The notes under the pieces are model-generated. The model had not been told where the DNA came from. It saw only the letters and a program-made list of their open reading frames with translations, and made no database searches. A stretch of DNA of 45,288 bases from an uncultured Bacteroidales bacterium (GTDB lineage: Bacteria > Bacteroidota > Bacteroidia > Bacteroidales > WCHB1-69). The stretch is from assembly GCA_905235135.1 (NCBI GenBank), contig CAJOKR010000033.1:1-45288 (forward strand). Direction: 5' to 3'. Positions 17,413 through 45,288 of the stretch are shown here, one piece after another. Position 1 is the stretch's first letter. Every line of letters starts with the position of its first letter. Both the position numbers and the translations under genes were made by a program.

Positions 17413-20400
17413 ATGAAAAAAGTACTCCTATACCTTATTATATTATGTACCGCCCTCGGTCTCTCCGCACAGACCTTCACCGAGTGGCAGGATCCCGCTG
17501 TGTTCGAGGTCAACAAGCTCTACCCGAGAGCCCATATCCCGCAGAACAACCTTTTCCAGAGTCCATACATAACGAGCCTCAACGGTCAGTGGACGTTCCA
17601 CTATGTGCCCAACGCGGACGAGCGTCCGATTGACTTCTTCCGCACCGACTATGACGACAGCGGATGGGACTCCATCTCCGTGCCGGGCAATTGGGAGTTG
17701 AACGGCTATGGCGTGCCCGTCTATGTGAACACCACTAACGATTTTGACAACAGCCAGTTGCCGAAAGTTCCCGTGAAGGGCAACGCCGTGGGCAGCTACC
17801 GCAAATGGGTGGAAATCGACAAAATCAGTGAAGGGCAGCAGGTTATCCTCAACATCGGAGGTGCGAAATCCTGCTTCTACCTTTGGGTGAACGGCGAGTT
17901 TGTGGGCTACAGCGAGGATGCCAAGACCAACTCCGAGTTCGACATCACCGAGTTTGTGAAGTTCGGGGAGCGCAACCTCATCGCTCTGCAGGTCTTCAAA
18001 TGGAGCGACGGTTCCTATTTCGAGTGCCAAGATTTCTGGCGGCTGAGCGGCATCGAACGCGGCATAACTCTCTACACCCAACCCAAAACGCACATCTTGG
18101 ATTACAAGGTGGTGGCGGATTTGGATTCCACGTACAAGAACGGGGTTTTGGATGTGGAGGTCGTGGTCGAGAATTTGACGGACAACGTTGTAGAGATGCA
18201 ATGCATTGCGTCTTTACAGGATTCCAAACATGTTCCCGAGGTAGGGGCGAATAATTATTTGCCTCTACGGAAAACGATGGATGTCCATTTCAACACCACG
18301 GGCAAACAAACCCTTCATTTTCATTTCACCATCCCCGATGTGCAAACCTGGACGGCGGAACACCCGAACCTGTTCCGGGTAAACATTTATCTGCAAGATA
18401 AAAAGGTTAATCCAAAGGGCGAAATCCGCATATACGACATGATTGTGACGGATATCGGTTTCCGCAACATCCGCATCGAAAACGGGCAATTGCTGGTGAA
18501 CGGGGTGCCGGTGACCATCCGAGGGGTTGACCGCCACGAGCACGACCCGCAAACGGGGCACGTGGCCGACAACCGCATCAAGGAGGACATCCTGCTGATG
18601 AAGGCCAACAACATCAACACAATACGCACGAGCCACTACCCCAACTCACCGGAGTTGTACCGGCTGTGCGACTACTACGGTCTCTACGTCATTGATGAGG
18701 CCAATGCCGAGTCGCACGCGCAGGGCTACGGAGAGAAGTCGTTGGCAAAACGCGCTGACTTCAAGGAGGCTACGGTGGCGCGCACCCGCAATATGTACGA
18801 GCGCGACAAGAACCATCCGTGCATCATTTCGTGGTCGTTGGGCAACGAATCGGGCAACGGCATCTGCTACGAGGCCGCCTACGACTGGCTGAAGGCGAAG
18901 GACAGCACCCGCCCCATCCAGTATGAGCGCGCCCTCTACGACCGCAACACCGACATTGTGGCCATCATGTACCCCTCGGCGGACTACCTTGCCCGCTACG
19001 CCCGCGAGCCGCAGACTCGCCCGTACATCATGTGCGAGTATGCGCACGCGATGGGCAACAGCTGCGGCGGTCTCTCCAACTACTGGGACACCATCTACCA
19101 ATACCCGCAACTGCAGGGCGGTTGCATCTGGGACTGGGTGGATCAGGGTCTGCTGACAAAGGATGCGCAGGGCCGGGAGTTCTACGCATACGGTGGCGAC
19201 TTCGGGGAGAACATGCCCTCCGACGGCAATTTCTGCATCAACGGCTTGGTGGGTCCCGACCGGAAACCGCACCCGCAGTTGGCCGAAGTGCGGAAGGTCT
19301 ATCAGCCCATCAAGATTGAAGCGGTGGACTTGGAGAAGTTGCAGTTCCGCATCATCAACCGCTTCGATTTCAGCAACTTGGAAGAATATTCATTGGCATG
19401 TTGGTTGCGCCCAGACATTGCACATGAATGGCTCGTGCATCCTGATGATTTTCTTAACAGACCCCTCCGTGGTCACTTTAAACCAATTCCTATAACCCTC
19501 GCTCCACACGATACAGGTTATTTTACTGTTCCACAACAATTTATGGAAATAATACGGGATTTGGATACGGTGTCGCCAGGCCAGGATGTGATGCTGGATT
19601 TTATGTTATATACCAAACGGAAGAACCTCCAACAATGGCAATTAGATTCTTCTTATAGCAGTATCGTCGCCTACGAGCAGTTCAAGTTGCCGGTGCCAAA
19701 ACAAAAACCGCTAAAAGCCAACTTCAGTTTCGTTACTGACAGCATAACCTATCGCTGGGAAGATACTATACTCAATATCAATGTGGGCAAAGTGGATATT
19801 TTGTTTGACTCAAAAACAGGACTTATCACCAGTATCACGAAAGACGGGAAGCCCGTAGTGGTCGATGGTCCGCAGCCTAATTTCTGGCGGCCGCCCACTG
19901 ACACGACCGCGTGGATGACCATGGAGAACTACTTTGGCGCAGAATCGGACTTGACAACCTCACGTATCATGTTTGGGATTTTAGAATTGAGGATTATTTA
20001 AGAAAATCGAATAGAGAAGATTTGCTCATTATGGTTTCGCAATCGGCCACGAATGAAAATGGTGAGCATGTCTTTTCGATTTCGACAAATTATTATATCA
20101 AACCTTCGGGTGACATATTCATATTCTATCATATTGATCCTGCTTCTTGGGTTTCTTCGCTTCCGAAAACAGGGATACAGATGAAGGTGTCGGACGAGTT
20201 GGTGATCACCGAATGGGTGGGTTACGCGCAGGAAACCTACAAAGACCGTCAAGCTTGTGGCTTTGTAGGTCATTACGAAGCCCCGACGGATGACTTGTTC
20301 CACCATTATGTACGTCCTCAGGCGGCAGGGAACCGTATGCAAACGCGTTATGTGTCACTTTTGAATAACAGGCACGAAAGAATGCTCTCTGCGAAAATGG

Positions 20401-42512: not shown

Positions 42513-45288
42513 AAAAACTATTAATACCACTTTTATTGATGGCATTTTTGAATAATTCGTTTGCCCAATATATCTGTATTGGAACGGAAGAAAACACTGA
42601 TTTTCGGGGTAATTGCACTCGCGTGACTCCAACAGATGTATATGATACGGGACTGTTAGCCTTATCATACATTCCAGATAGTAGCACACCAATAGTCACC
42701 ATCCCTGTCAACATTAATGTATGGAGAAAGGATGACGGAACGGGCAACTGGTGGTTGGACACACCTGCGTTTAGAGACAGTCTGCGTTTGGCGTTTGACT
42801 ATTTGAATTTCGTTTATTATCACAATAAACATACAGCTTGAATATTCCAAACGCACAATTTGTCCCAGACGCACGTGTCAGGTTTGTAATAGACACTATC
42901 TATTACTATAACAATACGGAAATGGCATACAAGGCAACACCATCCGCATTTGTTTCCTACTTGTCAGAACATTATCCTGAACGTCTTAACAATTTCACCT
43001 ACCATCTCTCAATAGACACAGCCGCCTATTATTCAGGGATGTCTTCCGGGTATAACACACAATACCCTGCGATTGTTTCAGTCCATCAACATAAATACCA
43101 CGGTTTATATGGTTTTGCCTTACACATGGCTCATGAATTTGGACACAACTTTGGTCTCGGACATACTTATAATTCAGAATATACAATAATTGCTCATCCA
43201 GAATTCCTATGGGACGTGTTCGGTACAGTAACGCAACCATGGTGTAGTGCACCTCCGACACAAATTTGTTATCATCATGGCGGATGGAGTTGTGACCCTT
43301 ACGACCCATCCAACACATGTACTAATAATATCATGGGAGGCACCATGTATAGCAGACACTTTTCAGCATTGCAATGTGGACGTATTCAACGTGCCTTACA
43401 AGTTTCCTCATTGAGACATTTTGCGTATGGTGAAGCAAACCCACCCGATTTGCATATCACCAAAAATCAATTAGTTGATTATACGAGAAAGTATTATCAA
43501 CCTGTAATTGTGGATTCAGGGGCAACGTTGACTATTACATGCAAGATTGAGATGGATACAGCAGCAAAAATCATTGTCCGTCCCGGCGGCAAGCTCGTCA
43601 TTGATGGCGGCACTCTCACCTCCGCCTGCCCTAACGAGATGTGGCAGGGCATCGAAGTGGTCGGCGACCGCACCAAACGGCAGCTTGCCCAATATCAAGG
43701 CACGGTGGAACTGCTCAACGGTGCCATCATAAAAAATGCGCATTGCGCCATCCGTACAGGACTTCGCAATGACGCGACATACGCTACGACGGGAGGCATC
43801 GTCAAGGCTGACAGCGCATTTTTCATCAACAACCGTCGGGCTGTGGAGTTCCTCTCTTATACCAACCACAACGTAGGCGGGTACATCGTCAGCAATCAAA
43901 GTTATTTCTCCAAGTGCTCTTTCTTGGTGAATGATGACAACTTCTTTTCCCAAAGCAACGGCTCCTTTATCGACCACGTCACGATGTGGGAGGTGAACGG
44001 GGTGGAGTTCAAAGGATGCGCGTTCGAGAACGCCACCACCGATCAGGGCGACCGCCGGCACGCCATCTACACCGAGGATGCAGGTTTCAAAGTGGACAAG
44101 ATTTGTACTTCTACAGCAATAGACCCCAACACCTGTACCTGTAGCGAGAATGCGTCTATTCACAGCACCTTCGCCGGTTTCTCTACCGCCATTGAAGCAA
44201 ATACCGCTGGCGAACAGTATCCCGTGGAGGTTGATTTCGCCATGTTCGAGAACAACGGCACCGGCGTGCGCATCAATGGCAACTCTTTTGCTTCTGTGAC
44301 CCGCTGCACCTTTGACATGAATTCCATACCCGGTTCCGCACACAACAACTGCGGGTTGTATCTGGATGGATGCACCGGCTACGTGGTGGAGGAAAACTCG
44401 TTTTTGAGAACATCCTACCCGACAGGACCATTCTACATTGACAACCGTACAGGCATCTCCGTTGCCAATTCGGGTACGGCTGCCAACAGTCTCTATCGCA
44501 ACACTTTCACCAATCTGACTAAAGGGATTTCAGTGTCTGGCGTCAATGGCAATCCCTTTCTGGGAGGTCTTCAAATTTCCTGCAATGTTTTCAATTACGG
44601 CAAATATGACATCTATCTGAACAGCGGCGCATCCATCGCCACCCCACAAGGTTCTGCCTCAAAGGGCGCCGACAACACTTTCAACAACGCCTCTTACAAT
44701 GTCAGCAATCTGAATAACCCAAATCTGAAACCTTTGAAATACTATTATTACGGTTTTGGCATTAACCTCGCTCCCGTGCACTACAGCAATGTGACTCTGG
44801 AAACAACAACTGCTGAGAATTACTGCTCATCCACCTTGTGCAATAATGGAGGTGGCTTCCCCCTGTTCACGTTCGCGGGGTTTCAGTCCGACATGGACAA
44901 CTATACCTCCGCCCAAGCGGATTATAACGACAACCTTGGCAACTTGGACAACACTAATCCGCAAACCCAGCTGACCGAGATGCGCCATTCCCTCTCCGAT
45001 ACCTATTACACTGCCGTCCGCGCCCTCATGTCCGACAGCCTGTTGGACCTCGCCGCATTGGAACAATGGCACACTGCCGCCCAGCCCATCGCCGACCCGT
45101 ATTCGCTGACGGAGACAAGGTTTGTGGAAGGTTACGCTGACCCCTTTGTGGCGGATGCCGATGACGCGGAAATGGCCAATTATGCGGAATTCCATGCGAT
45201 GAAACTGGCCTTGCGGGACAATGGTGCAGGAAACGACGGCACCATGGAGACGCAAAATTTTGCGTCTCTACAACCTGGCGGGTACGTC
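42509..45288 (+). CDS. Secreted metzincin metalloprotease with beta-helix region, one frameshift, partial at window end
   Basis: Signal peptide MKKLLIPLLLMAFLNNSFAQ starts at ATG 42509. After NFVYYHNKHTA the frame breaks at 42825-42841; the next frame continues LNIPNAQFVPDARVRF and stays open to the window end, at least 925 residues in all. The zinc site is HEFGHNFGLGH (metzincin HExxHxxGxxH), and IMGG in NNIMGGTMYSRHF is the Met-turn. This suggests an M43-like or related zinc peptidase. From about residue 340, repeated short strands and Asn/Gly turns (GTVELLNGAIIKNAHCAI, SVTRCTFDMNS, VVEENSFLRT) indicate a right-handed parallel beta-helix. Near the end, METQNFASLQ is encoded by palindromic copy 11. 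The T9SS signal, if any, lies outside the window. Confidence 0.82.
45244..45271. repeat. 28-bp palindromic element, copy 11, inside coding sequence
   Basis: ATGGAGACG + CAAAATTTTG + CGTCTCTAC. Same core as copies 1 and 3, with one changed and one shifted base at the left end. It is read in the protease gene as METQNFASL followed by Q. Confidence 0.93.

Follow-up and report, generated by a model that had tools for sequence, protein, structure and literature searches.

The 45,288-nt stretch of DNA analysed here (the window) is the whole of contig C33 from an uncultured Bacteroidales bacterium, and it carries copies of a short palindromic element that is dispersed through the genome and read in frame as a small peptide where it lies inside a gene. 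Sites occupied by this element are common to several species, and the resident at such a site is often a different member of the family, although the length (usually 28 bp), the reading frame, and most flank bases are retained. We favor, at a probability of roughly 60%, an explanation in which another member of the pool present in the same genome takes over the position of the resident, with the reading frame kept by the equal length of the two. The new part of this picture is that the site is inherited while its element is swapped.

The element consensus is GTAG-AGACG-10 bp-CGTCT-CTAC (GTAGAGACG-N10-CGTCTCTAC), a 28-bp palindrome that is nearly symmetric through its core. The genome, which we refer to as G000, amounts to 3.26 Mb in 118 contigs, is 88.17% complete, and holds 192 exact-arm copies of the main family and none of the reversed pattern. 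A sample of 101 stretches, window included (1,976,689 bases, ~60% of the genome), contains 232 accepted copies, while a single second-order Markov control built from these stretches contains 0, leading us to reject a chance origin. The core is 10 bp long in 208 of these 232 copies, so that most members are 28 bp, and the cores are themselves mostly palindromic. Around near-exact copies, the preceding base is T in 108/163 and the following base is A in 100/163. A sister family with GTAGGGGCG arms is represented by five exact-arm copies in the sample. The family thus consists of tiny, non-autonomous, dispersed palindromes. No Rfam family matches the window at gathering score, and a literature search for the arm sequences returned, among the matches listed, only primers and unrelated papers. 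When the element is translated, one frame holds a TAG stop, one begins R-D, and one gives the pattern V-E-T-xxx-(A/T)-S-L-Q, in which the core sets the variable residues. This frame logic, the role of the core, the positions and surrounding open frames of four genic copies in the window, and their shared reading as GTA GAG ACG or a close variant were all put forward in the original prediction from this DNA, and each is borne out here.

To compare residents across species, we used four element-carrying proteins, and later a metzincin, as queries against 40 genomes of the genus, G000 being one of them. Dropping same-locus pairs that share flanks and within-genome paralogues reduced the pair set from 113 to 99, and removing 8 pairs with unequal core lengths left 91 cross-genome pairs at 13 sites. 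The cores agree at 9 or more of 10 positions in 16 of these pairs, at 8 in 4, and at 6 or fewer in 71. Core sharing decays as the flanks diverge, with cores matching at 9/10 or better in 7/11 pairs whose flanks are at least 90% identical, 5/19 at 85–90%, 3/35 at 80–85%, and 1/26 at 70–80%. The arms, in contrast, are 94–99.5% identical across flank classes. For flanks that are 80–90% identical, the arms are ~95% identical and the 10-bp core 42%; random draws from the G000 pool give a core identity of 46% and the same core in 16%. A comparison of G006 with G000 gives a similar view. Of the 47 G006 copies compared, 28 are unplaceable, and 14 of the 19 placed sites are occupied in G000, where the same core or one with a single mismatch is found at 2/14 (three of the 14 sites were read by eye, L386 is loosely placed, and four come from genes of the 13-site set). 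Core differences between these two genomes are also seen outside genes, at L024 11475 and 11520, at L092 17508, and at a 29-bp intergenic copy in the window (3003..3031), where the core is TGCCATTGGCA and the G006 counterpart has CAATGCATTG between flanks that are 91/88% identical.

Individual genes illustrate how a site persists while its resident differs. At the first site of an RND transporter gene, element-free relatives read, for example, VEAVKAKLDEGF-TTTRKA, while carriers read VEAVKTRQ-[SRDVPWRVSTT]-SARKA and similar, with the core being TGCCATGGCG, CAAAATTTTG, or TTGCGCGCAA. The flanks of G000 and G038 are 97% identical at this site, yet the cores are TGCCATGGCG and TTGCGCGCAA, respectively, and G009 carries CAAAATTTTG at 91% flank identity. 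The first site of the EPSP-synthase gene is occupied in ten species, in one frame and mostly with differing cores. The peptides from nine of them are VETRHAASLQ, VETHGRASLQ, VETLHAASLQ, VETRHGTSLQ, IETQDFASLH, VETRCSTSLQ, VGTQEFASLH, VETICTSSLQ, and VETCHGASLQ; the element is absent in other relatives. The comparison also took in a second site in the EPSP-synthase gene.

Three genes of the window provide further sites. The glycoside hydrolase family 2 beta-galactosidase (open frame 17398..20001, plus strand) holds two elements. The first (18190..18217, plus strand) is in the V-E-T frame with core CAATGCATTG and 2/18 arm mismatches; at this position G010 shares the core, the element is degenerate in G031 and G015, and several relatives have none. 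The second (18241..18268, plus strand) belongs to the sister family, with consensus arms GTAGGGGCG, core AATAATTATT, and four arm mismatches. This second site carries the GGGGCG family in G033 and G028, and the GAGACG family in G010 and G036. The saccharopine-dehydrogenase-like gene (35966..37240, minus strand), which encodes an AlaDh/PNT N-terminal domain, has one element in its C-terminal tail (36001..36028, minus strand; VETHGRASLQ, core CACGGCCGTG, 0 arm mismatches). Only G006, among 24 aligned relatives, has an element tail; its core there is TGCCATGGCG, and another copy, which is degenerate, adjoins it. Finally, a gene named in the original prediction as a metzincin-type protease (43552..45288, plus strand), cut off while still open by the end of the contig, has a single element in a linker (45244..45271, plus strand; METQNFASLQ, core CAAAATTTTG, 2/18 arm mismatches); Pfam gave no match over the stretch 43552..45288. 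Relatives that are 51–60% identical, either orthologues or paralogues and compared as translated peptides only, have VETCHGASLQ, VGANNYSPLQ, and VGANDDSPLQ among their linker peptides, and in some the linker is Asn/Asp-rich instead. That alignment with orthologues would reveal an insertion of 9–10 residues had also been predicted, and this clearly fits the C-terminal tail at 36001. It is unclear for the beta-galactosidase copies, and for the first of them we reject a clean 10-residue insertion since several element-free relatives have a segment of roughly equal length, so that this copy replaced rather than lengthened the chain.

How could one member take the place of another? Two routes can be envisaged. 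The first would be short-homology copying at the hairpin, akin to gene conversion, and the second would be a transposase, supplied in trans, that excises elements and inserts them again at the GTAG/CTAC ends. With equal length and shared ends, replacement would be frame-neutral, altering three to six residues, where the shared ends would keep the outer residues and the core would set the inner ones. Because replacement would reset the arms to consensus, it would account for arms that are better conserved than their flanks, even in genes. The single frame at a given site would then be a founder effect, fixed once at insertion and kept by equal-length exchange because the replacing elements are nearly all 28 bp. 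The beta-galactosidase and metzincin sites hold members of the two arm families in different species, and such exchange between families would point to the GTAG...CTAC ends as the boundary in at least some events. We tentatively extend this to a 28-bp palindrome cassette-exchange system, in which members sharing only their ends would be swapped at fixed sites by a dedicated activity; this stronger claim has somewhat less than even odds.

Several points weigh against replacement in place. The pairs are not independent, as 41/91 come from one EPSP site, and the 13 sites stem from loci around four genes picked because G000 has an element there. The register is doubtful for one site group (window 18190 and G001), where protein alignment puts the G001 copy at the second beta-galactosidase site, and another (L051, L063, L189) may be paralogous. 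Some residents have simply been kept, with the same core at the second RND site in G000, G009, and G031, and within the GGGGCG family in G033, G028, and G039. Among the genomes compared, which include no near-identical strain pair, no exchange was seen between wholly unchanged flanks, and no donor copy was traced. A candidate activity is also not evident from gene neighborhoods, where none of the four Y1 transposase (Y1_Tnp) genes found in the 88.17% of G000 that is represented has a GAGACG-arm element in its locus. In relatives, the element occurs in 2/20 Y1 transposase loci. Copy number correlates with Y1_Tnp number (Spearman 0.58) and with genome size (0.68), and we give the Y1_Tnp correlation no weight.

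Some transposase loci have features of their own. One of the four in G000 (L116) has a degenerate sister-family copy (L116:2621-2648, VGTNDYSPLQ) ~1 kb away, in another open frame. A Y1 transposase frame resembling a REP-associated tyrosine transposase (RAYT; REP, repetitive extragenic palindrome) at L119:1402-2181, and also one at L088 near 3007-3937, carries a different in-frame repeat, GGAAFLPQN...DFRQECR, at both ends. This reads like a second translated, palindrome-like repeat that frames a transposase gene.

A different explanation, and the one advanced originally, begins from the reading frame. It holds that elements insert in both open frames and that purifying selection leaves mainly the tolerated V-E-T peptide. 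The window itself offers four of four genic copies in this frame, from which the frame was predicted to be the only one used; this count is unremarkable alone, because composition already gives an expectation of ~0.62 and hence a chance of 0.62^4 = 0.15. When the count is extended beyond the window to the 60% sample, the excess persists while exclusivity does not. The V-E-T frame is used by 27/32 genic copies and the R-D frame by 5/32, and in other lineages the ratio is 16:7 among the 23/87 exact copies that pass an open-frame filter (80 loci), some of these frames being short and unproven. We therefore reject exclusivity, given R-D in 5/32 copies here and 7/23 there, and regard the V-E-T frame as favored, not exclusive. 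Within the 27, four copies belong to the sister family and two are doubtful (L078:9669 and L066:1920), as is one R-D copy, L102:19746, at the very start of an 86-codon frame.

How much of this excess calls for selection depends on what is expected. Under a codon-composition model in which the bordering T and A are target bases, the three frame shares are 0.447, 0.274, and 0.279, which yields 62:38 for V-E-T to R-D; if T and A are part of the element, making a 30-bp insertion, the shares are 0.311, 0.379, and 0.310, or 45:55, against which the excess would be strong. A count of 25:5 departs from an even split (p = 0.0003) and from 62:38 (p = 0.015), and 25:4, with the three doubtful copies left out, departs further from the latter (p = 0.007). 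Counting related type IX secretion system (T9SS) tails once gives 19:5 (p = 0.09 against 62:38) or 19:4 (p = 0.05), a marginal excess. Thus, the excess is real against an even split, while composition may account for 62:38. The apparent age of copies adds a second contrast, with V-E-T to R-D at 12:5 for near-exact copies (0–1 arm mismatch) and 15:0 for those with at least two mismatches (Fisher p = 0.046), as expected if selection removes the R-D frame, which also brings a cysteine in several copies. However, without the four sister-family and two doubtful copies the comparison becomes 9:0 vs 12:5 (p = 0.13). In addition, two R-D sites, one in the RND gene and one in the EPSP gene, recur in six and seven species (the element being degenerate in two of the seven) and are old for that reason. 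Selection for the V-E-T frame is thus weakly supported, and we consider tolerance selection doubtful as the explanation of the overall pattern. With replacement in place, the moderate V-E-T excess would instead stem from the composition of the target, to which a peptide less disturbing to the protein than R-D-x-x-x-x-V-S-T might add.

It is also conceivable that each site is an insertion hotspot, where the loss of one element is followed by the independent arrival of another at precisely that nucleotide. Differing cores would then represent separate insertions. The preference for T before and A after the element suits such a view, as does the presence of members with different arms at one beta-galactosidase or metzincin site, and a partial parallel exists in the remark that two Xanthomonas species carry different REPs at about the same place in recB (Di Nocera et al., 2013, PMC3733652). 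The flanks of carriers argue otherwise. GGCAA precedes the RND element in 6/6 carriers and AACCTC follows it in 5/6 (G038 lost it), while element-free relatives are without both, and the nine aligned EPSP carriers have a derived right flank, a GTGGGAAAACCGA-like stretch, that three element-free relatives lack. Moreover, the decay of core sharing with flank divergence is that of an inherited resident. We regard independent insertion as unlikely. Still less probable is that cores evolve in place through fast point mutation, with hairpin-templated repair restoring the palindrome and no exchange at all. The mostly palindromic cores, and site pairs that differ by one or two changes, are consistent with this; however, core identity is bimodal, cores that differ often belong to canonical types that the genome also holds at many further sites, and the arms that adjoin the core hardly change. 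An assembly artefact, with repeats collapsed or mis-joined in draft genomes, might be suspected in an incomplete genome of 118 contigs, yet it is scarcely credible, as it would presumably need two simultaneous mis-joins in 9-bp arms, below the usual assembly word sizes, and many genomes that were assembled separately show the pattern, at several sites.

Across the sample, copies lie mainly just downstream of genes, often providing a TAG stop, with some in frame in proteins. Genes were called with a simple codon-usage caller made for this analysis (1,695 genes, 88% coding). The 232 sample copies comprise 146 that are intergenic, 45 that give a TAG stop, 32 inside genes, 6 over a 5′ end, and 3 otherwise over a 3′ end. 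The 200 copies not inside genes are found between codirectional (132), convergent (48), and divergent (14) genes or at stretch ends (6), and many of them are within 40 bp of a stop. Truncation of genes by insertion in the stop frame was considered; 47 genes end on an element TAG, but the distance to the next in-frame stop shows no sign of recent truncation. Hosts of the 32 genic copies include the RND transporter, EPSP synthase, LpxB, and proteins with T9SS tails. Copies read in frame occupy linkers and loops of their host proteins as well as C-terminal and T9SS sorting tails. Sorting tails appear to be a favored home, with 7/27 V-E-T copies assigned there by inspection (L024, L035, L051, L063, L095, L098); Pfam was run on two of these seven and matched both. 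Alignments to PDB structures, which are too distant to date insertions, show longer loops at the element sites in 2/3 proteins, the third alignment ending before its site. Copies also cluster, as successive copies are less than 60 bp apart in ten cases where ~1.6 are expected. Pairs spaced 34–55 bp start-to-start are found in L107, L108, L098, L099, L067, L054, L029, L024, and L021, and in the window at 18190/18241. One AcrB-like transporter gene contains two elements between conserved blocks (L113:13820-13847 and 14080-14107), read in the R-D and V-E-T frames.

The remaining copies in the window fit this distribution. One end of an intergenic copy at 2037..2064 (minus strand) gives the TAG stop of the minus-strand gene 2061-2957, and a copy at 11454..11481 (plus strand) does the same for the gene 9685-11457. 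A copy with core CACGGCCGTG at 12732..12759 overlies the 5′ edge of a frame called on the minus strand (11490-12743) and is probably upstream of its true start. Intergenic copies are located at 21213..21240 (core CGCCATGGCA) and 41357..41384 (core TTGCGCGCAA, one arm mismatch), and a perfect palindrome with altered arms, GTAGGAACG-TTGCGCGCAA-CGTTCCTAC, lies at 39513..39540. The beta-galactosidase gene (17398-21201) itself looks split by a frameshift or an assembly error; relatives match only to ~residue 836 and many have open frames of ~1,250–1,330 codons, while forward frames 19911-20888 and 20758-21201 overlap downstream here. The window also contains tandem-repeat arrays of a 14-bp unit made of two heptamers at 7899-8049, 33437-33607, and 16244-16317. 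Similar heptamer-type tandem arrays adjoin small hairpin repeats in cyanobacteria.

The element also occurs beyond this genome. Within the genus, 38/40 genomes carry between 2 and 244 exact-arm copies and two carry none. Among 117 genomes sampled from the phylum, G000 not counted, 21 have matches. Copies are mostly few in these, and in some of the genomes listed the repeated cores are peculiar to them. Among the copies listed, favored cores differ between species around constant arms. The matches listed for exact arms (80 of at least 118 stretches) include Bacteroidales, many cyanobacteria (Dulcicalothrix, Calothrix, Nostoc, Scytonema, and Planktothrix), and single matches in other phyla. The most G000-like of these 80 belongs to a Bacteroidales bacterium from goat abomasum (L237), with ~87% DNA identity over the longest match.

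Known repeats resemble the element in part. Heterocyst-forming cyanobacteria reportedly contain small dispersed repeats of 20–30 nt, some being hairpins with compensatory changes, which work by Elhai et al. from 2008 is said to regard as mobile. Our element is likewise small and dispersed, and cyanobacterial records do contain its exact arms. REPINs are paired REPs tied to a RAYT. The present elements are mostly single and symmetric, with some pairs at 34–55 bp and no linked RAYT, although both are non-autonomous palindromic mobile elements (PMC3116915).

Among the closest known families are the GTAG-tagged REPs, which one survey lists for Proteobacteria, Cyanobacteria, Chloroflexi, and the Planctomycetes-Verrucomicrobia-Chlamydiae (PVC) group, with CGTC repeats given for Bacteroidetes (Di Nocera et al., 2013, PMC3733652). 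Compared with these by description, our element is similar in being a short, dispersed palindrome of high copy number that ends in GTAG (192 exact-arm copies; 232 in the sample), in lying between unidirectional or convergent genes near 3′ ends, in providing TAG stops, in entering open reading frames and forming dimers, and in occurring in several phyla including Cyanobacteria. It differs in that the tag described there is unpaired at one end of a stem-loop, while GTAG here pairs with CTAC in a near-symmetric structure, and in that no RAYT gene flanked by the repeat is found among the four Y1_Tnp genes of this 88.17% complete genome. Palindromic repeats inside genes and as suppliers of TAG stops are thus already in print in that survey, where over half of the intragenic REP inserts listed are dimers or groups of 20–30 residues (PMC3733652). 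The originally proposed likeness to protein-embedded Rickettsia palindromic elements (RPEs) is apt as to how the element works, for in both a palindrome is read in frame as a peptide within many unrelated proteins (32 genic copies here), and RPE-4 and RPE-6 are themselves CGTC REPs. RPE-1 is described as longer (PMC3733652), while a single element here contributes ~10 residues. For exchange itself, the nearest precedent is the recB remark noted above (PMC3733652); apart from it, the open-licence literature covered here gave no account of members being exchanged between orthologous positions, subscription papers being outside this scope. A 1988 review cited in the same survey has the words 'evolution by gene conversion?' in its title (PMC3733652).

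It has long been asked whether conversion or transposition drives change in bacterial REP-like palindromes, and inherited sites, the flanks as a clock, and the reading frame together make this measurable. If members are indeed exchanged as cassettes, each genic site would be a slot whose short peptide is drawn anew, still in frame, from a pool spread over the genome. Such a system would amount to an in-frame protein diversifier acting across the genome, on secreted proteins as much as on enzymes and transporters, and built on arms that different phyla share. It would also show a mobile repeat staying for a long time in ordinary enzymes while altering a small piece of them.

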